64,000 nucleotides of DNA from Desulfovibrionales bacterium (GTDB lineage Bacteria; Desulfobacterota; Desulfovibrionia; Desulfovibrionales; Desulfonatronaceae), in assembly GCA_007693505.1 (NCBI GenBank), contig REDL01000050.1, forward strand, positions 1 to 64,000, in the 5' to 3' direction. The position numbers were made by a program, and so were the translations under genes. Positions within the stretch are counted from its first letter, which is position 1, and every line of letters begins with the position of its first letter. Below, piece by piece: positions 23,756 to 60,771 of this stretch. Under the pieces are notes generated by a model that saw nothing but the letters and a program-made list of their open reading frames with translations, searched no databases and was not told the origin of the DNA.

Positions 23756-24994
23756 TTAGGCTTTGGCCAAGTGACGCATTTTTCCGGCCATGAACATCTG
23801 CGGTTCCAGAGGCAGTTCGCTGCCCTTGAGCATCATGTCGAAATAGACCCACTTGAACATCATCTTGCCCCAGTAGTTCATGTGGGACTCGCCGAGCAGG
23901 GAAAACGGACCGATGCCGGGAAAGGGGTATTTGCCCGGAAGCGGTTGAATTTCATAGTTGAAGTCGATCAGGTAGGCCTGTTCGTACCCGGAGACGATGA
24001 AGCAGGTGGAGTGGCCGTCATAGTCGGGACGGGGCTCCTCGCCCTCCATTTCCCGGATCAGGTTGTCCACCACAATGTCGGACTGGTAGTGGGCCACGCT
24101 TCCGGCCTTGGAAGTGGGCACGTTGGTGGCGTCTCCGATGACGTACATGTTCTCGAAATTCTTGGCCTTCAGGGTATGCTTGTCCGTTTCCACGTAGCCC
24201 ATGGCATCGCCCATCCCGGAGTCAGTGATCACTTCCTGTCCTAAGTTTGGTGGGATGGCCACCAGTAGGTCGTAGGGTACTTCCTCGCCGGAGACGGACT
24301 CAATGGTCTTCTTGCCTACATTGATGTTGTCCACCACGAAGTTCGGAGTGACCTTGATGTTCTTGTCCTCGCAGACCTTGCCAAGGACCTCGGCGGCTAC
24401 GGGCTTGGTAAAGGCTCCAGTGAGCGGGGTGACCAATTCTATTTCGATGTTCTGGCGCACGCCGTTGATGCTGAAAAACCAGTCGGCGAGATACACAAAT
24501 TCCAATGGTGCCACCGGACACTTGATGGGCATTTCGGCGATATGATGGACGATGCGTCCTTCCTTCATGTTCTTCCATTTCTTGAACAGAGCCACTGCAC
24601 CGTTCGGGGTGTAGAAGTTCTGGATGTTGCCCCCCCAATCGTCCATCATGCCCTCGACTTCCTCGGGGGCGATGCGGCATCCCGTGGCCACCACCACCCA
24701 ATCGTAGGTGTAGGAGCCGTTCTTGCATTTCACGGTCTTCTTGGCTGGATCGATTGATTCAATCGAGTCCATGACCAGCTTGACACCCTTGGGGATGAAG
24801 TCCGCTTTGGGCTTGATGCAGTCTTCCAGGGTGTAGACGCCGAAGGGCACGAACAGCCATCCGGCCTGATAGTGGTGCTCCCAGTCGCGGTCGATGACCG
24901 TGATTTCCCACTCCTTTTCCGGAAGTTTTTCACGCATTTTCGTGGCAACCATGGTTCCACCGGAGCCGGAACCAAGAATGAGCAATTTTTTCAT
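23756..24994 (-). CDS. Sulfide:quinone-oxidoreductase-like FAD protein
   Basis: A 412-residue flavoprotein of the two-dinucleotide-binding-fold family. FAD is bound by ILGSGSGGTMVA at the N-terminus and by the NMYVIGDATNVPTSKAG segment. Candidate redox Cys are in IKCPVAPLEF (about residue 160) and HSTCFIVSG (about 347), matching two of the SQR cysteines. The C-terminus is amphipathic (MNYWGKMMFKWVYFDMML), suited for peripheral membrane attachment. It would oxidise sulfide or a persulfide and reduce quinone, or run in reverse; the SQR subtype is uncertain. The start follows CAGGAG. Confidence 0.8.
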   Translation of the reverse strand: MKKLLILGSGSGGTMVATKMREKLPEKEWEITVIDRDWEHHYQAGWLFVPFGVYTLEDCIKPKADFIPKGVKLVMDSIESIDPAKKTVKCKNGSYTYDWVVVATGCRIAPEEVEGMMDDWGGNIQNFYTPNGAVALFKKWKNMKEGRIVHHIAEMPIKCPVAPLEFVYLADWFFSINGVRQNIEIELVTPLTGAFTKPVAAEVLGKVCEDKNIKVTPNFVVDNINVGKKTIESVSGEEVPYDLLVAIPPNLGQEVITDSGMGDAMGYVETDKHTLKAKNFENMYVIGDATNVPTSKAGSVAHYQSDIVVDNLIREMEGEEPRPDYDGHSTCFIVSGYEQAYLIDFNYEIQPLPGKYPFPGIGPFSLLGESHMNYWGKMMFKWVYFDMMLKGSELPLEPQMFMAGKMRHLAKA

Positions 24995-25108: not shown

Positions 25109-25585
25109 TTAGGCAGCTTGGGCAGTTTCATGCCGGCAGGGATCCATTGTGGTTTTGCGAAGCGACGGTGGGGCGTCGAAAATCGAGCCCTGACGCATCA
25201 TTCTGCCTAGGGTGATGGAATCGAGCTTGCCCTGAAGCGTATTGGAAAGGTCGTCCCAAATGGCAGGACAGCCGCAAAAATCAGAAGGCTCGCAGGTCGT
25301 TGGGTCAGGGCAGCAGGACAACCGCGACCCACCATCAAAGGCCTGAACGATTTCTCCCAGGGTGATGTCCTCAGGGGAACGACCAAGAAAGTACCCTCCG
25401 CCTGGACCGCGCAAGCCCTTGATCAGACCTGCCTGGCGAAGCGGTTTGATTATTTTTTCCAGATATTTGGTAGATATTCCAATACTGTTGGAAAGCTGAG
25501 ATGAGTGAACGGGGCCTCTTTGGGAAAAGTGGGCCAAATTTATCAGCAAGCGTGCACCGTGGCGTGTTCGTTGGGAGAGTTGCAT
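25109..25585 (-). CDS. Rrf2-family transcriptional regulator with Cys-rich Fe-S motif
   Basis: A 158-residue winged-helix regulator from the ATG at 25585 (MQLSQRTRHGARLLINLAHF). GLIKGLRGPGGGYFLGR is the Rrf2 wing signature. A Cys group, CCPDPTTCEPSDFCGCP (about residues 92-108), sits where IscR-type members ligate a [2Fe-2S] cluster. It lies upstream of the SQR/DUF1641/signalling run on the same strand and probably regulates it in response to redox or sulfide. Confidence 0.85.
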   Translation of the reverse strand: MQLSQRTRHGARLLINLAHFSQRGPVHSSQLSNSIGISTKYLEKIIKPLRQAGLIKGLRGPGGGYFLGRSPEDITLGEIVQAFDGGSRLSCCPDPTTCEPSDFCGCPAIWDDLSNTLQGKLDSITLGRMMRQGSIFDAPPSLRKTTMDPCRHETAQAA

Positions 25586-25651
25586 GTCGTGTCTCATCAA
25601 GTAGTTGAGTGAATGAAATTCTAAAGTTGATTTTTTTAATATATATAACAC

Positions 25652-26316: not shown

Positions 26317-26793
26317 TCAGCCAGTCAATGGCTCCTCAGCGCAGCCGGGGCTTCGTGGTGTCGCGGGGACGGATGTTTCACCGATCTTACCCGGATTGAA
26401 CATCAGATCCGCCAGGGTGATGGCGTCCAGTTCGCGTTCCATGGTTTGTGAGATTCTTTCCCAGGCTATCCTGGTGCGGCAATCGCCGCTACGCTCGCAG
26501 ATATTGGGATTCGAACTGCACTGACTGATTTTGATATCACCCTCCATGGTTCGAACGATGTCGCCAAGGGTGATGCAGGCGGGGTCTTGGAGAAAGATAT
26601 GACCGCCATAAGCGCCACGAACGCTCTTGATGTAACCGGCTTTTTTCAGAGGGCGAAGGATTTGTTCGATGAACGGCACGGAAATGTCAGTTTTTTCTGA
26701 GATTGCGGAGGCACAGAGCGGCCTGTCCTCAGTGTGCTCGGCCAAATCGAGCAGGATGCGGGTTGCATAACGTGACCTGGCAGACAGTTTCAT
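26317..26793 (-). CDS. Rrf2-family transcriptional regulator
   Basis: A 158-residue winged-helix protein starting MKLSARSRYATRILLDLAEH after a GGGAGAG site. IKSVRGAYGGHIFL is the wing. The cluster-binding Cys group is CSSNPNICERSGDCR (about residues 92-106), spaced C-x7-C-x5-C. It is divergent from the tmcA'-C'-B' genes that begin at 27094, so it probably controls them as well as itself. It is distinct from the regulator at 25109. Confidence 0.85.
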   Translation of the reverse strand: MKLSARSRYATRILLDLAEHTEDRPLCASAISEKTDISVPFIEQILRPLKKAGYIKSVRGAYGGHIFLQDPACITLGDIVRTMEGDIKISQCSSNPNICERSGDCRTRIAWERISQTMERELDAITLADLMFNPGKIGETSVPATPRSPGCAEEPLTG

Positions 26794-27093: not shown

Positions 27094-27542
27094 ATGCATC
27101 GATTTTCTTTTGAAAAGATCTTTTTTCCTCATTTTCTTGAACACAAACGCGTGGTGTGCGCAATCCTGACCTTTGTCTTTTTTTTCATCGTGAGCTTGAT
27201 CGTCCTCAACGGAAGGCCTGTAGCCCTGGCCGAACCGCTGTTTCTGGCTGATCCTGCGTTTACACCGCGTGAGCGTCCGGGCGTGCTTTTTGACCATGAC
27301 GGGCACATGGAACTGGCGGATTGCCTCGACTGCCACCATGCATTTGAAAATGGACGAAATATCTGGGAGTATGGCATGGAAACCCAGTGTTCCGCCTGTC
27401 ATGCAGCCGCTGAAAAGGGCAGGCTTGGGCTGCGCAGAGCCGTTCATGGCAGTGCATCGGTTGCCATGCCCAGCAGCCTGCCACGGGCAGGGCTCCGGTG
27501 ATGTGCGGTGCCTGCCATGTTCGCGGAGGAGGGCAGCCGTGA
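27094..27542 (+). pseudogene. Tetrahaem cytochrome c3-like TmcA paralogue with a frameshift
   Basis: A signal-anchored periplasmic cytochrome. The N-terminus has a membrane segment (about 19-41), then RPGVLFDHDGHMELADCLDC with CLDCHH and CSACH haem sites. At about 27448-27450 one base appears to be missing. In the shifted frame the sequence continues as QCIGCHAQQPATGRAPVMCG and ends CGACHVRGGGQP, ending with TGA at 27540-27542. That restores haem sites three and four and matches the intact tmcA at 42676 (HEQCIGCH, MCGECHVRR). Without correction only two haem sites are made. It may be a true frameshift or a sequencing error. It overlaps the tmcC' GTG start by four bases. Confidence 0.8.
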
Positions 27543-28195
27543 TTCATGTGGTCTATAATTTTGCCGTGGGGCCAATGGTCTGGCTGGCCTTCACGATTTG
27601 TATCACGGGCTTGGCCTATCGCCTGATTCGCTATCGCCGCAAGGCCGTGGCGGCGAAAAAGGGGTTGCCCGGTGATTTCCGGACAACCTGGGCCGTGCGA
27701 TCAATGCTGTATTACCTTCTTCCGCTGAACCGAACGGCCAAAAGCAGCCCCTGGTCCACGGTCGCCGGGTTCGCGCTACATATCCCTCTGCTCGTGGTGG
27801 CCTTTTTCCTCTCGGCCCACGTGATCATGCTGGAACAAAGCTGGGGCGTCGCCTGGCCGACCATCCCGGATGTTTGGGCCGATGTACTGACCATCATTGC
27901 CCTGGCCGCTCTGGGCTTTTTGGCGCTGAAACGATTGCTACACCCTGCTTTGCGGGGACTGACGGAACCCAAGGATTTGCTGGTTCTGCTGTTGGTCGCC
28001 CTGCCCCTGCTCACCGGACTGGCCGCGCACCGGCAGTGGGGCGATTATCCGCTGATGCTGACCCTGCATGTGCTGAGCGCGAATATTCTCTTGATGCTCA
28101 TCCCCTTTACCAAGCTGTCACACATGGCGCTCTTCTTCGTCTCCCGTGCGGCAACGGGCAGCGACTTCGGCAAGCGGCAGGTGGGGGCATGGTGA
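27539..28195 (+). CDS. TmcC-like integral membrane subunit (NarI/DsrM family)
   Basis: A 218-residue, five-to-six-helix protein starting at GTG 27539 (VIHVVYNFAVGPMVWLAF), with a GGAGGAGGG site inside tmcA'. It aligns through its length with the TmcC encoded at 40633 (FAxHIxLLxxxFFLSAHxIMLEQSWGV, ANILLMLIPFTKLSHM). His residues in membrane helices could ligate haem b. It would pass electrons between the periplasmic cytochrome and the cytoplasmic Fe-S subunit or quinone. The longer upstream frame is a shadow. Confidence 0.88.
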   Translation: MIHVVYNFAVGPMVWLAFTICITGLAYRLIRYRRKAVAAKKGLPGDFRTTWAVRSMLYYLLPLNRTAKSSPWSTVAGFALHIPLLVVAFFLSAHVIMLEQSWGVAWPTIPDVWADVLTIIALAALGFLALKRLLHPALRGLTEPKDLLVLLLVALPLLTGLAAHRQWGDYPLMLTLHVLSANILLMLIPFTKLSHMALFFVSRAATGSDFGKRQVGAW

Positions 28196-28211
28196 CGAAA
28201 AGGAGCGATTC

Positions 28212-29453
28212 TTGACCATAGATACCCAGACCCTCTCCCGGACTCTGGCCGACAAGGCCGGGGCTCGACTGGAGATGTGGTTGTCCATTTGTTCCCGGTG
28301 CGGGATGTGCGCGGAAGGTTGTCACTACTATGCCTCCAATCCCAGGCCGGAGCATGTTCCGGCCTTTCGGGTCAAGCCGTTGGTGGATCTGTACAAAAAG
28401 CGCGGCCAGGTGGACGCCACGGTCCTCGAAACCCTGCGCGACGTCTGCTACGGCACCTGCACCATGTGCCAGCGCTGCACCATGTACTGCCCCCACGGCA
28501 TTGGTATCGCCGCCCTGGTTCATGCTGCCCGGGGCGTGGCCGTGGCCATGGGGCTGACTCCGCCCGGACTGGCCAAAGGTCTGGAGAACGCCTTGGAGTT
28601 TGGCAACAACCTCGGGGTGACCGAGGATGATTTTCTGGAAACCGTGGAGTGGCAGTTGGAGGAACTGCAGGAGGAAATGCCTTTTGCTCGCGCTCCCATG
28701 GACAAGGAGGGCGCGGAGTTTCTGCTGACGTTTCATCCGCGGGACATAAAGTTCTATCCGCAAAATCTTTTCAACTATCTCAAGCTCTACAATGCCGCTG
28801 GCATCGACTTCACCATGTCTTCCAAAGCCTGGGATTCAACCAACCTGGGGCTTTTTGCCGGAGACGTGGCCAAGGCCTCCAGGCTGGCGGCCAATGTCGC
28901 GGACACGGCCGAGCGACTCAAGGTCAAGGCGCTGATCACCGCGGAGTGAGGCCACTCCATGAAGGCCCTCGGGTTCGAGGCGCCATACTGGTTGGGCAGG
29001 AAATTCTCCTTTGAGGCCATGCCGCCGATCAAGGTCTGGGCGGATTGCCTGCATGCCGGGACCCTGAAACTCAAGCCAGGGTTTCATGCTGCCCCGGTCA
29101 CATTTCAGGATTCCTGCAACTTTGTACGCAATGCGGGTATGTATCAGCAATCCAGGGATTTGATGTCCGTGGTGGCCACGGACTTCCGGGAAATGCATCC
29201 GCATGGCAACGCGACCTATTGTTGCGGCAACGGCGGCGGTCAGGGGCTGATGCCGGAATACAAGCAGGCCAAGATCGCCGCGTTGAAGGCCAAGGCCGAC
29301 TGCATCCTGGCCACGGGCGCAAAGACGGTTGTCGTGGCCTGCCACAACTGCGAGGACGGAATTCACGAAACCTGCAAAAACTATGAGCTGGACGCCAAGG
29401 TCGAGCTGTTCAGCGCCTACCTGGCAGAGGCGGTGGACCTGCAGGGGAACTGA
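28212..29453 (+). CDS. TmcB-like CCG-domain Fe-S protein, probable selenoprotein (UGA at 28947)
   Basis: A 413-residue cytoplasmic HdrD/TmcB-type protein if TGA at 28947-28949 is read as selenocysteine (residue 246). The start is TTG at 28212, six bases after AGGAG. Two ferredoxin motifs lie near 27-37 (CSRCGMCAEGC) and 83-93 (CTMCQRCTMYC). Around the TGA the frame reads KALITAE-U-GHSMKALGF; the intact homologues in this window read GECGHAFRS (39295) and TECGHAHRA (59368), so the stop replaces exactly the conserved Cys. After it the CCG domain is complete: DSCNFVRN, YCCGNGGG and ACHNC. A SECIS-like hairpin follows 22 nt downstream. No separate start signal precedes the second half. The protein would couple a cytoplasmic thiol/disulfide or ferredoxin partner to TmcC'. 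Confidence 0.85.
28964..28984 (+). promoter_or_regulatory. SECIS-like stem-loop
   Basis: CCUCG (28967-28971) pairs with CGAGG (28976-28980) around a GGUU loop. Two more G-C pairs (28964-28965 with 28983-28984) follow across a small internal loop. The apical loop begins 22 nt after the UGA and has G in its first two positions, fitting the bacterial SECIS rule of 16-37 nt spacing. Confidence 0.6.
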
Positions 29454-29499
29454 AAGAGGGGATTATTCCTACCCAGAAAACCATGCACAACCAACAGCA

Positions 29500-29536
29500 A
29501 CGGCCCGGTGAGATTATCTCGCCGGGCCGTTTTTTT
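29500..29536 (+). terminator. Rho-independent terminator after tmcB'
   Basis: ACGGCCCGG pairs with CCGGGCCGT, extended by four inner pairs (TGAG/CTCG, one G-T), and is followed by seven T. It lies 47 bp after the tmcB' stop and isolates the tmc'-type set from the arr-like operon. Confidence 0.85.
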
Positions 29537-29840: not shown

Positions 29841-29968
29841 CTGTAATATAAGCACTGTAATATCAGCATGAGGGTTTGTGAATTGATTCGTGTTTTGATG
29901 GGATTTCAAGGACTCCCGTGATCCGATCCGACAGAATGATCATTGTCCAAGAACCTCGAGGAGGAACC

Positions 29969-32533
29969 ATGAAACAATTGGAGATTGACGGAATGGACGG
30001 TAAAGACGGAACCACGGTCAGCAGGCGATCGTTCGTCAAAGGAGCGGCTGCGGCGTGCGCCGGGCTGGCCACTGGCGGGCCAGCGCTCAGTGCCCTGACC
30101 CCGGGCACGGCACATGCCAGAGGCGCTCTGGCCGAGGGCAAATGGGTCAGCAGCTGCTGTGTGGGCTGTACGTCCTGGTGTTCCAAGCAGGTCTACGTGA
30201 TCAACGGGCGGGCCGTGAAGATTCGCGGTAACCCGCATTCCAAGACCAACGGCATCAGCTCCTGCCCCCGGGCCCACCTTGCCCTGCAGCAGGTCTACGA
30301 CCCGGACCGGGTCAAGACGCCCATGAAGCGGACCAACCCGAAAAAAGGCCGCAACGAGGACCCGGGATTCGTGCCCATCTCCTGGGACGAGGCTCTGGAC
30401 ATGCTGGCGGACAAGATCATGGAACTGCGGGCCAACGACGAAACCCACAAGTTCATGCTTATGCGCGGGCGCTACACGGCACTGAGGGATCTGCTGTACG
30501 ATCGCCTGCCGAAAATCATCGGCTCTCCCAACAACATCTCTCACAGCTCCATCTGCGCGGAAGCAGAAAAGATGCGCTATTTCCAGGAAGGGCAGTGGGC
30601 CTACATGCAGTATGACATTCCCAATACCCGCTACGTGCTGATCTGGGGCGCGGACCCGGTGGTGGCCAACCGCGGGGTATCTTCCTACCTGAACAGCTGG
30701 GGCCGAGCCCTGGACAACGCCCGGATCGTCTCGGTGGAACCGCGGCTCACGGGTACGGCCGGTAAATGCGACGAATGGCTGCCGGTCAAGCCGGGTTATG
30801 ATGGCGCTTTGGCCTCGGCCATGGCCCATGTCGTTTTGGTGGAAGGGATGTGGTACAAACCCTTTGTTGGCGATTTTTTCGACGGACAAAACCGGTTCAT
30901 CCCCGGCCAGAAGGTCGATGAAGATATTTTTCTGGAAAAGCATACTCACGGCTTGGCCAAGTGGTGGAACCTGTATCTGAAGGACGTGACCCCGGAATGG
31001 GCCGAGCCGCTCTGCGGCATTTCGGCGGAGCAGATTCGCCGCGTGGCCATGGGATTCGCCGCGGCGGCTCCCAACTGCATCTCCTGGGTCGGCGGCGGAC
31101 CGGCCATGCAGCCTCGCGGTACCTACGGCTGCCTGGCGGCCAATGCCCTAAACGGCCTTGTGGGGGGGTGCGATAACGTTGGCGGTGTCCTTGCCTACAA
31201 CTCTCGGAGCTATCAGGGTTTTCCCTCACCCAACGATTTCATGGACGAGATGGCCCAAACCAATTCAAAGAAAGAAAAGATCGACCAACGTGGGCGCCTG
31301 GAATGGCCCAACCTGGCACGGGGAAGGTCCGGGGCCGGCGTGAACGCCAACAACGTGGCTGACGCGATCATCAATGAGGATCCCAACGAAATCAAAGTGG
31401 CCATGGGCTATTTCAATAACTTTAATTTTTCCTGCCCTGGAACCGGCCGCTGGGACCAGGCCATGTCCAAGGTCGACTTTTTCGCCCACCTGACCACCCA
31501 TGCCTCGGAAATGAGTTTCTACGCGGATATCGTGCTGCCGGTGAACCATTGCATGTTCGAGGCCTGGGGCACTTTGGACAACTCCAGTAACGGGTATCGG
31601 TCCGTGAGCCTGATGCAGCCGGCCATTGAGCGACTCTGGGACACCAAGAGCATGGAAACGGAAATCCCCTGGCTTTTGGCCGAAAAGCTGGCCCAGCGCG
31701 GATTCGACAACCTGCTGCGCTACTATCAAGCCGTGGTGGACCCGGAAACGGGAAAAGCACCTACCAATGAAAAGGAATTCGAGCTGTACGCCATCAAGCA
31801 CCTGACGCAGCACTTCTGGGATCCGACCCAGAGTAAGGGTGGCGACAAATTTCTCGGGTGGGAACAGTTCGTGGAAGTCGGGGTCTGGAACTCCGATCCC
31901 TATTTGCACCGGGCCCGGTGGAGCAACATGGGCACCAAGACCGGGAAGTTCGAATTCTATAGCGAAACTCTGAAGGAGGCTTTGGAGAAGCACGCTGAGC
32001 GGCACAACACCACCGTGGACCACGTCTTGGAGGTCTGCAATTATCTGGCACGCGGAGAGATGGCCTTCATCCCCCACTACGAAGAGCCCTACGAGTGGGG
32101 TGACCCGGGGGTGTATCCGTTCAAATTCGTGGACTACAAGGGCCGCCTGAACCGGGAAGGTCGCAGCTCCAACTGCTCCTGGTATTTGCAACTCAAGGAT
32201 CTGGATCTCGGCGACATCGCCTACGACGACGTGGCCAAGCTGAACCCCATTGACGGTGAACGTCTGGGCATCAAGACCGGGGACAAGATCCGCCTGACCA
32301 CGCCCACGGGCAGCATCGTCTGCACCGCATCCCTGTGGGAGGGAACCCAGCCCGGTACCGTGGCCAAGTGCTTCGGCCAGGGACATTGGGCCTACGGGCG
32401 GCATGCGGCCAAGGTCTTTGGCAAGGAGGCCCTTGGGGCGAACAATAACGACATCATTCCGGTGGACTATGACCGTCTGAGTGGCTCCACGGCATTTTAC
32501 GGCCACATCCGACTAAAAGTCGAAAAGGTCTAG
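29969..32533 (+). CDS. arrA: ArrA-like respiratory arsenate reductase catalytic subunit (periplasmic molybdoenzyme)
   Basis: An 854-residue Mo-bisPGD enzyme with a Tat signal (SRRSFVK, R19-R20; cleavage near AHA-RG at 50). A [4Fe-4S] site is formed by C64-x2-C67-x3-C71 and C99. The presumed Mo ligand is Cys196 in SHSSICAEAEK. RGRYT (R168, Y169), H192, S193, C196 and K201 have the same mutual spacing as the arsenate-pocket residues I recall for Shewanella ANA-3 ArrA (R165, Y166, H189, S190, C193, K198), and the length is also that of ArrA as I recall it. It could still be a related polysulfide or thiosulfate reductase. GAGGAGG precedes the ATG. Downstream are the B subunit and a TorD-type chaperone; no membrane anchor gene is present. 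Confidence 0.75.
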   Translation: MKQLEIDGMDGKDGTTVSRRSFVKGAAAACAGLATGGPALSALTPGTAHARGALAEGKWVSSCCVGCTSWCSKQVYVINGRAVKIRGNPHSKTNGISSCPRAHLALQQVYDPDRVKTPMKRTNPKKGRNEDPGFVPISWDEALDMLADKIMELRANDETHKFMLMRGRYTALRDLLYDRLPKIIGSPNNISHSSICAEAEKMRYFQEGQWAYMQYDIPNTRYVLIWGADPVVANRGVSSYLNSWGRALDNARIVSVEPRLTGTAGKCDEWLPVKPGYDGALASAMAHVVLVEGMWYKPFVGDFFDGQNRFIPGQKVDEDIFLEKHTHGLAKWWNLYLKDVTPEWAEPLCGISAEQIRRVAMGFAAAAPNCISWVGGGPAMQPRGTYGCLAANALNGLVGGCDNVGGVLAYNSRSYQGFPSPNDFMDEMAQTNSKKEKIDQRGRLEWPNLARGRSGAGVNANNVADAIINEDPNEIKVAMGYFNNFNFSCPGTGRWDQAMSKVDFFAHLTTHASEMSFYADIVLPVNHCMFEAWGTLDNSSNGYRSVSLMQPAIERLWDTKSMETEIPWLLAEKLAQRGFDNLLRYYQAVVDPETGKAPTNEKEFELYAIKHLTQHFWDPTQSKGGDKFLGWEQFVEVGVWNSDPYLHRARWSNMGTKTGKFEFYSETLKEALEKHAERHNTTVDHVLEVCNYLARGEMAFIPHYEEPYEWGDPGVYPFKFVDYKGRLNREGRSSNCSWYLQLKDLDLGDIAYDDVAKLNPIDGERLGIKTGDKIRLTTPTGSIVCTASLWEGTQPGTVAKCFGQGHWAYGRHAAKVFGKEALGANNNDIIPVDYDRLSGSTAFYGHIRLKVEKV

Positions 32534-32553
32534 GGTTTCGCAAAACCAATACG

Positions 32554-32677
32554 CAGGCTGTTCAAAAAACTTGATGGCAAGGTGCAAAAAGAGGTCACGG
32601 TCGAAACGTATTTCTTCATGCGTGAGGGTTTGCACATTTTGCGGCATCGCAGCCAGCGAGGATTTTTCAACAGCCTG
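32554..32677. repeat. MITE-like element between arrA and arrB
   Basis: A 124-bp segment is bounded by 15-bp inverted ends, CAGGCTGTTCAAAAA and TTTTTCAACAGCCTG, with one mismatch. The inside has no coding character. Elements with a 'CAGGCTGTTGAAAAA' end are scattered in many proteobacterial genomes. It separates arrA from arrB by 161 bp in an otherwise typical operon. Confidence 0.65.
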
Positions 32678-32694
32678 CCAGGAGGAGAGATATA

Positions 32695-33420
32695 ATGGCA
32701 CGATACGCTATGGTCATAGATATGCAGCTGTGTACAGGATGCGGCGGGTGCATCATCGGATGCATGAACGAGAACAACTTGCCAGAAGGGATGCGCTGGT
32801 CCGGGAAGATAGCCGAGACCCTTGGCAGATACCCCTTAACCCGCTATCACTATAGGCCAACGCTTTGTAATCACTGCGAAAACGCGCCTTGTGTCCACGG
32901 CTGCCCAACCAAGTCTCTGTACAAGGCCGAGGGTGGGATTACGGCCCATGATATCAACAAGTGCATCGGTTGCCGGTACTGCATGTTCAACTGCCCCTAC
33001 GAAGGGGTGATATATTACAATTTGCGCCAGCCGCATGCCGAATGGCGCAACAACACGGCCGTTATTCCCAATAGCACGTCCACTCCAGCGGAAACTTTAC
33101 GTCGGACAGGCGCACGGGGCTGGCCGATCCAGAACCCGGATCCCGACATCACCTATGCCTCGATCCGGCCCAGGGGCGTGGTGGAAAAGTGCACCTTCTG
33201 CCAACACCGGGTGATCAATGGTGAGCTGCCCTACTGCGTTGAAGTCTGCCCTTCCAAGGCCCGGATTTTCGGGGACCTGGATGATCCCCAAAGCGAGGTC
33301 AGCCGGCTTCTGGGCATGTTCCCGGCCGAGCGGCTGCGCGAGGAGTTGGGCACCAGGCCACGCGTCTACTACATCCGGGAATTTTGCCCGAAACCACAAC
33401 CACAACCACAAGCCGGGTGA
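32695..33420 (+). CDS. arrB: ArrB-like four-cluster [4Fe-4S] subunit
   Basis: A 241-residue ferredoxin-type partner of the Tat molybdoenzyme. It has four Cys groups: CTGCGGCIIGC (12-22), CNHCENAPCVHGCP, CIGCRYCMFNCP and CTFCQHRV...CVEVCP. The long insert with NPDPDITYASIRP before the fourth group and the GTRPRVYYIREF end agree with my recollection of ArrB and set it apart from shorter PsrB proteins. There is no signal of its own; it would be exported with ArrA. GGAGGAGAG precedes the ATG. Confidence 0.78.
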   Translation: MARYAMVIDMQLCTGCGGCIIGCMNENNLPEGMRWSGKIAETLGRYPLTRYHYRPTLCNHCENAPCVHGCPTKSLYKAEGGITAHDINKCIGCRYCMFNCPYEGVIYYNLRQPHAEWRNNTAVIPNSTSTPAETLRRTGARGWPIQNPDPDITYASIRPRGVVEKCTFCQHRVINGELPYCVEVCPSKARIFGDLDDPQSEVSRLLGMFPAERLREELGTRPRVYYIREFCPKPQPQPQAG

Positions 33421-39294: not shown

Positions 39295-40614
39295 TTAGGC
39301 CTCCGGGCGTTCCATGCACTGGTAGATGATGTCCCCCAGGAATTTGATGTCCATGCCCAGCTCGTACTTGTGCACCGTGTCGTCCAGGCCGCCGTGGCAG
39401 TTGTGACATGGAGCGATGATGGTCTTGACACCAGTGGCTCGGAGCTGGTCGGCTTTGGCTTTGCAGGCTTCAACCCGGGCGTTTTTGAATGGCGGCCCGC
39501 AGTTGATCACCCCACCTCCGGCAGAGCAGCACAGATTATGCTCCCGGTTGGAGGTCGTTTCCACGATGTCTCCGTCCACCAGAATACGGATGACATCGCG
39601 CAGTTTGTCGCCCAAACCTCTTCCGCGGACGATGTTGCAGGGGTCCTGGAGCGTGACCGGCCCAGGGTACTTGGAAACCAGTTTTATCTTGCCCTGGGTC
39701 AGCAGTTCCCAGAAAAATTCCACGGAGTGGACCACAGGGACAGGGTAGTGTTTCCAGCCGGCCCAGCGGTTGCCCACATCGTAGACTGATCGAAAGGCAT
39801 GGCCGCACTCGCCCATGACGATCCGCTTGACCTTGAGTTTCTGGGCGGACTCGAAGTGCTTGCGTTTCAACCGGCCCATCATCTCAAAGTCCCCGGTGAA
39901 CATGCACATGTCCGAGTTGTCCCAACCCGGCTCCGCGGGCATGGTCCAATCGATCTTGGCTGTGTGCAGGATGGCCGCTGCCTGATAGATCAACTGGGTC
40001 CGGAACTTCGGCTCCGGGGCGATGACCGAGTAGTAGACGTCCGCGCCTTCCTTGTCCAAGGGAATACGCAGATCCGGGAATTCATCCCGGGCCTCTTCCT
40101 CTTGCCACTGCAAGGTGTCGGTCCATTCGTCGTCCTTGACCCACATCTGGTTAAAGGTGGCGGAATGGCTGTGGGCCGTGTCTTGGATATATTGTGGGGT
40201 GACCCCCAGCTTGTGACAGATTCGGCGCATGGTGATCATCATGTAAGCCGTGTCGATGCCCACCGGACAGTAATGGACGCAACGTCGGCACAGGTTGCAC
40301 TCTGAATAAGCGATCTGGGCCATGCTGTAGATCTGGTCCGGGCTGACCCTCCCGCCATTCGCCAGGAGCGTGCCGATGGTCTGCTTGACCTTGGCTGCCG
40401 GAGCATAGGTGGGATCTTTGTCGTGGGAGAGGTAGAAGTGGCAGGCCTCGGTACACATTCCGCAACGCAGGCAAATTTCGGCATACGCCTTGAGCCGAGC
40501 CCCGGTCTCTCCCTGAAAAACCGCATTGACGGTTTTCTGGATACTGTCCTCGTTCAAACGGGAAACCCCCTCACGGAGTCCCACGTCCTCGATCAGTCTC
40601 TCTTGAATGCCCAT
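39295..40614 (-). CDS. tmcB: TmcB, CCG-domain Fe-S subunit of the Tmc complex
   Basis: A 439-residue cytoplasmic HdrD-like protein. It has two ferredoxin motifs (CLRCGMCTEAC, CNLCRRCVHYCP), then GECGHAFRS, QDPCNIVRG, LCCSAGGG and APCHNCHGG of the CCG domain. In the Tmc complex it links the membrane subunit to a cytoplasmic redox partner. All positions are Cys here, in contrast to the selenocysteine-type paralogue at 28212. AAGGAG precedes the ATG. It is the last gene of the tmcA-D-C-B run. Confidence 0.9.
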   Translation of the reverse strand: MGIQERLIEDVGLREGVSRLNEDSIQKTVNAVFQGETGARLKAYAEICLRCGMCTEACHFYLSHDKDPTYAPAAKVKQTIGTLLANGGRVSPDQIYSMAQIAYSECNLCRRCVHYCPVGIDTAYMMITMRRICHKLGVTPQYIQDTAHSHSATFNQMWVKDDEWTDTLQWQEEEARDEFPDLRIPLDKEGADVYYSVIAPEPKFRTQLIYQAAAILHTAKIDWTMPAEPGWDNSDMCMFTGDFEMMGRLKRKHFESAQKLKVKRIVMGECGHAFRSVYDVGNRWAGWKHYPVPVVHSVEFFWELLTQGKIKLVSKYPGPVTLQDPCNIVRGRGLGDKLRDVIRILVDGDIVETTSNREHNLCCSAGGGVINCGPPFKNARVEACKAKADQLRATGVKTIIAPCHNCHGGLDDTVHKYELGMDIKFLGDIIYQCMERPEA

Positions 40615-59367: not shown

Positions 59368-60771
59368 TTACTCTTCGCCTTCCTCGTCCTGGGGCTTGAG
59401 GTGATCCGGGACGATCATCATCTTGATCACCAACGGCTTGAGGAAGGACCAGCGGATGCCCATGGGGTATTCCTCCTCAAGATCGCGGATGGCATCCCAG
59501 CAATTATGGCAGGGGGCGACCACGAGTTTGGCACCGGTATCCATGATCTGCTGCCGCTTCTTGAGCAGGGCGATGTTGCGTTGCGGCCGGTACTTGCCGA
59601 TCCCGTTGAACCCACCGCCACCGCCGCAGCAGTAGTTGTATTCCTTGTTCGGAGCCATTTCCACGAAGTAGCCCGGTTCCACCAGATAGCTCATGATTTC
59701 CCGGGTGATGTTCTTCAGGCCCTGGTTGCGGACATAATTGCAGGAATCCTGCAATGTAACCAGCTCCTTGATCCGCTTGGCCGGGTCGATCTTGATCCGC
59801 CCGGTGCGCAGCATCTCCGCCAGCCACTCCACATAATGGAGAAAGGGCCTCGGCGGTTGGCCGTCTTCCCGGCCGGCCCAGTAGGGCCCTTCGATCACCG
59901 TGGCCCGGTGCGCGTGGCCGCATTCCGTACCCACGACCCGCTTGGGCCGTAACCGTTCGATGGCGTCATAGACATGCAGGACGTTTTGCTTGCAGCCTTC
60001 CCAGTCGCCGGCGAACAGAGTCAACGAGGTCTGTTCCCAACCTTCGGAGGGCACGGTCCAGTTTTCGCCGGCCACATGGAAGAGGATCGCCGCCTCGGCA
60101 ATGTCTTCGGGATAGTGTTTGGCCTCGCGGGCATTGAGGGTGTACATGATGTCCGCGTCTTCCTTGTCCACAGGAATTTCCAGGCCAGGCCACTCTTCAC
60201 AGTTCTCGTCGGCCATCCATTCGCAGGTGTCCACCCAGTCCTCGGTGGTCACGTCCATCTGGGCCTTGTACACCCGGTGCATTCCGGAACCAATCTTCAA
60301 TTCCCAGGGGACAAATCCCTGGGAGAAAAGCAGGCCCCGCAGGTAGGAGAACATCACGCCCATGTCGATGCCGTGGGGGCAAAACTGGCCGCAGCGGTTG
60401 CAGCAGGTGCACCAGCTCCAGGCGATGTCCATGCAATTGCGCATAAAGGCGTTGTCCACCTTGCCCTTGCGCTTGACGATCTCACCCAGGGTGGCGTGGA
60501 TTTTGGCGGAAGGGACCTGGCGGGGGTCCCTGCCGTTGCATTCGTAGAGAAAGCAGCTGTCCGCGCACAACCCGCATTTGGCGCAGACATTCAGCCAGGT
60601 TTTCAATCGGGATTTCATGGTATTCTGGATGGCGGACCACAGTTTGTCCGTGTCCACCTCCAGTTGCTCCATTTCCGCGTAGTATTGCTTGCCGCCCTTG
60701 TCCGAGAGCGTCAGCTTGAGTTGCTCGTCGGTGGTGATGGGCTGCCTGTTGCATAGAGTACCTTCGGGCAT
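59368..60771 (-). CDS. hmcF: HmcF, CCG-domain Fe-S subunit of the Hmc complex
   Basis: A 467-residue cytoplasmic protein. Ferredoxin motifs are [11 protein letters not shown] and [12 protein letters not shown]. The CCG-type half has [26 protein letters not shown] and APCHNCWDA. The length and order agree with HmcF of D. vulgaris. It faces the cytoplasm and exchanges electrons with an unknown carrier. Confidence 0.92.

Follow-up and report, generated by a model that had tools for sequence, protein, structure and literature searches.

Evidence for a selenocysteine-containing HdrD/TmcB-like subunit encoded beside a TmcC-like membrane protein in a Desulfovibrionales bacterium

The Tmc, Hmc, DsrMK and HdrDE complexes are central to transmembrane electron flow in sulfate reducers. 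Within the Tmc complex, the TmcB subunit is predicted to act on DsrC (PMC10553843). HdrB, according to PMC13083937 (citing Wagner 2017), holds two noncubane clusters, each of which takes up one half of a disulfide. The noncubane cluster of EtfD is described in the same paper as coordinatively saturated by a histidine and non-catalytic; its ligands (D2) are C637, C672, C673, C709, C712 and H583, and those of the other EtfD cluster (D1) are C503, C538, C581 and C584. In 2006, five bacterial sequences, those of Desulfotalea and D. vulgaris among them, were catalogued as "Fe-S oxidoreductase (GlpC)" proteins with selenocysteine (Sec) (PMC1794560). The motif of these GlpC selenoproteins is given as UGH in a 2026 review (PMC13188914), and the operons described for some of them are glpC-hdrA-frhD-frhG-frhA.

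The locus described here lies in a 64-kb window, by which is meant the whole stretch of 64,000 nucleotides that was analyzed. Features are on the forward strand (+) unless otherwise stated.

Decoding of the in-frame UGA codon

When the in-frame TGA at positions 28947–28949 is read as a residue (Sec246, in the context ITAE-U-GHSMKA), a single protein of 413 residues extends from the TTG at 28212 to the TGA that ends at 29453. The TTG is preceded by 6 nt by an AAGGAG ribosome-binding site (28200–28205). The coherent translation that the sequence-only reading had reported on both sides of the TGA was confirmed: a 4Fe-4S dicluster domain with two 4Fe-4S motifs lies upstream (28281–28502, residues 24–97; Cys 27, 30, 33, 37, 83, 86, 89 and 93 are invariant), and a full C-terminal CCG domain lies downstream (PF02754, 29097–29354, residues 296–381; ligand Cys 302, 337, 338, 377 and 380). 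The TGA falls at the cysteine of the ECGH motif, as had also been claimed, and both paralogues in the window, TmcB (39295–40614) and HmcF (59368–60771), carry TGC at this position. The gene therefore has the in-frame UGA in place of a homologue's Cys codon that is expected of a bacterial selenoprotein gene.

A total of 17 full-length orthologues (56–100% identity) were found among 297 genomes of the order, and every one of them has one TGA, at the Sec246 codon. The class-level search added one partial orthologue, also with TGA, and returned no Cys orthologue at that identity level. The dN/dS ratio was approximately 0.07–0.12 and was equal on both sides of the TGA, which indicates purifying selection. 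The host genome (3.94 Mb) was found to contain the machinery on which the sequence-only reading depends: SelA (607 bits), SelB (384 bits) and SelD (329 bits) all scored above their cut-offs, a tRNA-Sec with the anticodon TCA (tRNA-Sec(UCA)) is present, and the gene for SelD itself contains an in-frame TGA. The selA gene was also present in 16 of 16 other orthologue genomes. Pairs of homologues with Sec and Cys at this position, for which the sequence-only reading had proposed to look, occur within one bacterial family of the phylum, in which the codon is TGA in three genomes and TGC in two (approximately 41% identity to the query). Overall, the tree requires at least four changes between Sec and Cys.

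A hairpin of the bacterial SECIS type is located downstream of the TGA at 28964–28984, with 8 bp, one bulged C and a GGUU apical loop at 28972–28975 (−12.3 kcal/mol). The hairpin had been said to begin 22 nt after the UGA; the GGUU hairpin is indeed present, but with its start at 28964 and GGUU at 28972, the distance of 22 nt fits the loop and not the hairpin. All of the published bSECIS constraints are satisfied, namely a loop of 3–9 nt, a stem of 4–16 bp, G in the first two loop positions, a distance of 16–37 nt from the UGA, and a minimum free energy of at most −7.5 kcal/mol (PMC13188914). The Rfam scan of the 64-kb window gave no match at the gathering score. Compared with a codon-preserving null, the energy of the hairpin showed a modest excess (mean z of −1.2 for the 17 orthologues and −2.2 for the window gene). 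Taken by itself, minimum free energy argues only weakly for a SECIS element; what carries the case is covariation and co-occurrence with the TGA. The hairpin was in register in 26/26 homologues with TGA versus 5/46 homologues with Cys (Fisher p of 6e-15, computed without correction for relatedness); when only distinct sequences were counted, the values were 20/20 and 4/42. Within the orthologue clade, the closing pair changes from G-C to A-U in 6 of 12 sequences, and in the other Sec clades four hairpin pairs are altered on both sides. In the control, in which the partner strand was slid by one column, the pairing was destroyed.

If the TGA were a true stop, the gene would be a pseudogene or would have been divided into two polypeptides, the second of them starting by reinitiation at the ATG at 28959. 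This ATG, four codons past the TGA, is found in the window gene and in 7 of the 16 other orthologues, and to that extent favors a split gene. However, it is missing in 9 of the 17 orthologues, and reinitiation was rejected because the ATG is not conserved. A pseudogene or nonsense mutation was likewise rejected, on the grounds that the TGA is kept in orthologues at 56–97% identity, that downstream dN/dS equals upstream dN/dS, and that selA is found in all 16 other orthologue genomes; the hairpin, moreover, covaries and accompanies the TGA. A true stop is thus extremely improbable. Pyrrolysine is encoded by TAG, not TGA. Because the TGA is conserved, selection is equal on both sides of it, the sel genes are present and the in-register SECIS hairpin covaries, it is nearly certain that SelB, acting at the downstream hairpin, decodes the UGA at 28947 as Sec246. 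The exchange of Sec and Cys among homologues gives additional support to the selenocysteine reading.

Relation to Tmc, Hmc and Dsr proteins and gene neighborhood

To place the Sec protein among its relatives, NCBIfam scores were compared. HmcF was the best family (NF045711, 353 bits against a cut-off of 750), followed by TmcB (NF045724, 301 bits against 735) and DsrK (NF045796, 191 bits against 400). Membership in TmcB, HmcF or DsrK was rejected as the curated cut-offs were missed. In the tree, which included 15 Sec orthologues, these formed their own clade with a support of 97/100, apart from the HmcF, TmcB and DsrK of the same genome. The sequence-only reading had designated the protein a TmcB paralogue; it is a paralogue, but one of a separate clade and slightly nearer to HmcF by score. 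By sequence comparison, the Sec protein appears to be a third paralogue that is neither TmcB nor HmcF, and complete Tmc and Hmc loci are also present in the window.

A gene for a TmcC-like membrane subunit of the NarI type lies immediately upstream (27539–28195, 218 aa, GTG start), so that the partner gene expected beside a TmcB is found here. Its score to TmcC is below the cut-off (NF045723, 197.9 bits against 240), yet TmcC is its best family, and it adjoins the Sec gene in 20/20 loci. Four His residues are invariant among its homologues and, by analogy, may be enough for two hemes b. Further upstream is a gene for a TmcA-like tetraheme cytochrome c (27094–27542), whose stop codon shares bases with the start GTG of the TmcC-like gene. 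This gene has a 1-nt frameshift near 27449, possibly a draft sequencing error, and is intact in the closest relative (L018/L105). Altogether, five relatives have an intact cytochrome gene, and the CxxCH scan of the loci did not find it in the remaining relatives. The TmcC-like gene is present in all 20 loci and the cytochrome is intact in only five relatives; therefore, the conserved core consists of two genes, as it does in HdrDE and DsrMK. An intrinsic terminator (29499–29531, a 15-bp stem and a T run) closes the three-gene unit.

The locus might be a second Tmc or Hmc complex, in which the Sec protein would be the TmcB (or HmcF), unchanged in function but upgraded with selenium. The resemblance to TmcB includes the domain order, the CCG domain, the ECGH/EUGH position, the TmcC-like partner and, in some relatives, the TmcA-like cytochrome, and the resemblance to HmcF consists of full-length homology and the highest NCBIfam score. 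In contrast to TmcB, however, the protein has Sec for Cys and is 31–33% identical, and no TmcD is adjacent; in contrast to HmcF, it again has Sec in place of Cys, and its locus is without the 16-heme HmcA and HmcB-D. The shortfall in the TmcB and HmcF scores, the well-supported separate clade, and the complete Cys-type Tmc locus 10 kb away in the window also argue against a second complex, which is therefore improbable. It is highly probable that the Sec protein instead pairs with the TmcC-like heme-b protein and forms the cytoplasmic half of a membrane complex of two subunits. The architecture would be that of HdrDE, DsrMK or EtfD, although in contrast to EtfD the soluble and membrane parts are encoded by separate genes at this locus. 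The membrane partner probably links the Fe-S protein to respiration.

In terms of the surrounding genes, two regulators of the Rrf2 family (25109–25651 and 26317–26793, both on the minus strand) are divergent from and upstream of the cytochrome, TmcC-like and Sec genes. In G089 and G027, too, Rrf2 homologues lie close to the Sec gene, and the two in the window may regulate the unit. The gene at 23756–24994 (minus strand) matches the selenoprotein subtype of type III sulfide:quinone reductase (NF049943, 675.9 bits, cut-off 525); its frame is without TGA, and it is apparently a Cys form. A sulfide:quinone reductase gene together with a DUF1641 gene is found close to the Sec gene in each of the five Desulfomicrobium-like genomes as well as in G027 (L110). 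On the other side, the stretch at 29918–33420 encodes a molybdopterin oxidoreductase with 1219.7 bits to ArrA (below the cut-off of 1600), a ferredoxin-like subunit and a TorD-type chaperone. This putative respiratory reductase also adjoins the Sec gene in G006, but was not observed next to it in G001, G003 or G007. In other members of the phylum with Sec or Cys forms (L121, L122 and L124), the homologue is also downstream of a TmcC-like gene. MetF/MetV-like genes are found close to two of these, L122 and L124, and at L122 there is a large HdrA-like gene as well, which suggests other metabolic couplings.

Cluster ligands and the possible role of Sec246

The AlphaFold2 model of the Sec subunit, which was made with a 47-sequence alignment, had a pLDDT of 91.9 and replaced a prediction from a 2-sequence alignment that was useless (pLDDT 33). 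The best solved fold match of the model was EtfD (9OJN, Z of 27.6 over 382 residues), and the HdrB chains gave Z values of 19.6–20.5. In the profile alignment, the EtfD D2 ligands C637, C672, C673, C709, C712 and H583 correspond to C302, C337, C338, C377, C380 and H248, respectively, of the Sec protein. Thus, the fold and all of the D2 noncubane ligands of EtfD and HdrB/HdrD are kept, and with its five CCG cysteines the protein has the features of a noncubane CCG protein of the HdrB/EtfD type. In contrast, the D1 ligands C503, C538, C581 and C584 correspond to P176, S209, U246 and S249, so that the first CCG site differs from that of EtfD and HdrB/HdrD in that three of its four ligand positions are missing and the fourth is Sec. 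On this alignment, the D1 cluster appears to be lost, with Sec246 as the sole surviving ligand position. The sequence E245-[U/C]246-G247-H248 is invariant in 47/47 aligned sequences, as are Cys 302, 337, 338 and 377; Cys380 is nearly invariant. Sec246 is two residues from the His ligand (His248, codon 28953–28955), which is aligned with the noncubane cluster ligand His583 of EtfD. The selenium-tuned site beside an Fe-S cluster that the sequence-only reading proposed fits this alignment, and we still infer such a site here.

A noncubane [4Fe-4S] cluster with Cys302, 337, 338, 377 and 380 and His248 as its ligands is likely, judging from the aligned residues, and would be the electron end point. 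The TmcC-like heme-b subunit would exchange electrons with menaquinone or with a periplasmic cytochrome, and the electrons would run between the quinone or heme b and, via the two 4Fe-4S clusters, the noncubane cluster. The periplasmic tetraheme cytochrome would be an optional third part that is broken in the host. The Sec246 selenolate and the noncubane cluster would then act on a di-, tri- or persulfide, with a DsrC trisulfide or polysulfide as the best guess for the candidate substrate. We tentatively suggest that the cluster may take one sulfur of such a substrate and Sec the other. The complex would accordingly be a putative quinone-linked disulfide/persulfide reductase that uses one noncubane cluster and one selenol. 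A more specific version is rather doubtful: a new catalytic arrangement in which one noncubane cluster and a Sec, the latter at the only ligand position left from the lost cluster, take the place of the two noncubane clusters with which HdrB splits a disulfide. The enzyme in question would be a quinone-linked membrane enzyme of two subunits, and its reaction the reduction (or formation) of a di-, tri- or persulfide.

Because the Sec protein keeps the EtfD-type His, a pure electron relay is also possible. In this case Sec would be real, but residue 246 would be an electronic or structural tuner (a second-shell or a direct Se ligand), and the complex would only relay electrons between the quinone or cytochrome and a partner in the cytoplasm, as has been proposed for EtfD. 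His583 completes the coordination of the EtfD noncubane cluster, which only relays electrons, and the same His is invariant in the Sec protein; since EtfD with this His is non-catalytic, the relay is a serious rival with an appreciable chance of being correct. However, residue 246 never departs from Cys or Sec, although nothing else of the first cluster site is left. This points to a thiol or selenol that takes part in the chemistry, and Sec is a costly residue to use as a mere spectator. As a whole, the combination of a selenoprotein, a two-subunit membrane complex and cluster/selenolate chemistry is quite likely to be the best explanation.

Catalogued selenoproteins and natural Sec/Cys exchange

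The Sec protein resembles the GlpC selenoproteins (COG0247/PTHR43551), by description only, in being a CCG-type Fe-S protein of Deltaproteobacteria with Sec in a U-G-H motif. It differs in its operon, as the flanking elements here are the cytochrome gene, the TmcC-like gene and the terminator, as opposed to hdrA-frhD-frhG-frhA, a context that is not required of all members. Searches of titles and abstracts gave no report of Sec in DsrK, heterodisulfide reductase or Tmc/Hmc subunits, and the literature searched held no report of the UGH selenoprotein family in a Tmc/Hmc-type membrane pair. The protein had been expected to be an unusual member of the Tmc/Hdr family, and this holds for the membrane pair but not for Sec-containing CCG Fe-S oxidoreductases as such. 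Because the UGH family was already catalogued, since at least 2006, the novelty is limited.

The change from Cys to Sec in the ECGH motif has occurred in several lineages, and Cys and Sec forms are found in sister species. This natural swap offers a ready means of asking whether residue 246 is in contact with the noncubane cluster or with the substrate. Automatic annotation may truncate such genes at the UGA. One Cys homologue with TGT (L092, in genome G351) has retained a SECIS-like hairpin with good pairing, which is likely a fossil left over from a recent reversion of Sec to Cys. In G351, a draft assembly of 91% completeness, no SelA was found, and no tRNA-Sec stood out from the background that ordinary tRNAs give, so that both may be only apparently absent. 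The superfamily has two more Sec clades, with EUGHE and EUGHA motifs (L031, L038, L040 and L041; L067 and L068), in the same genus and order at 28–37% identity, each with its own SECIS hairpin.
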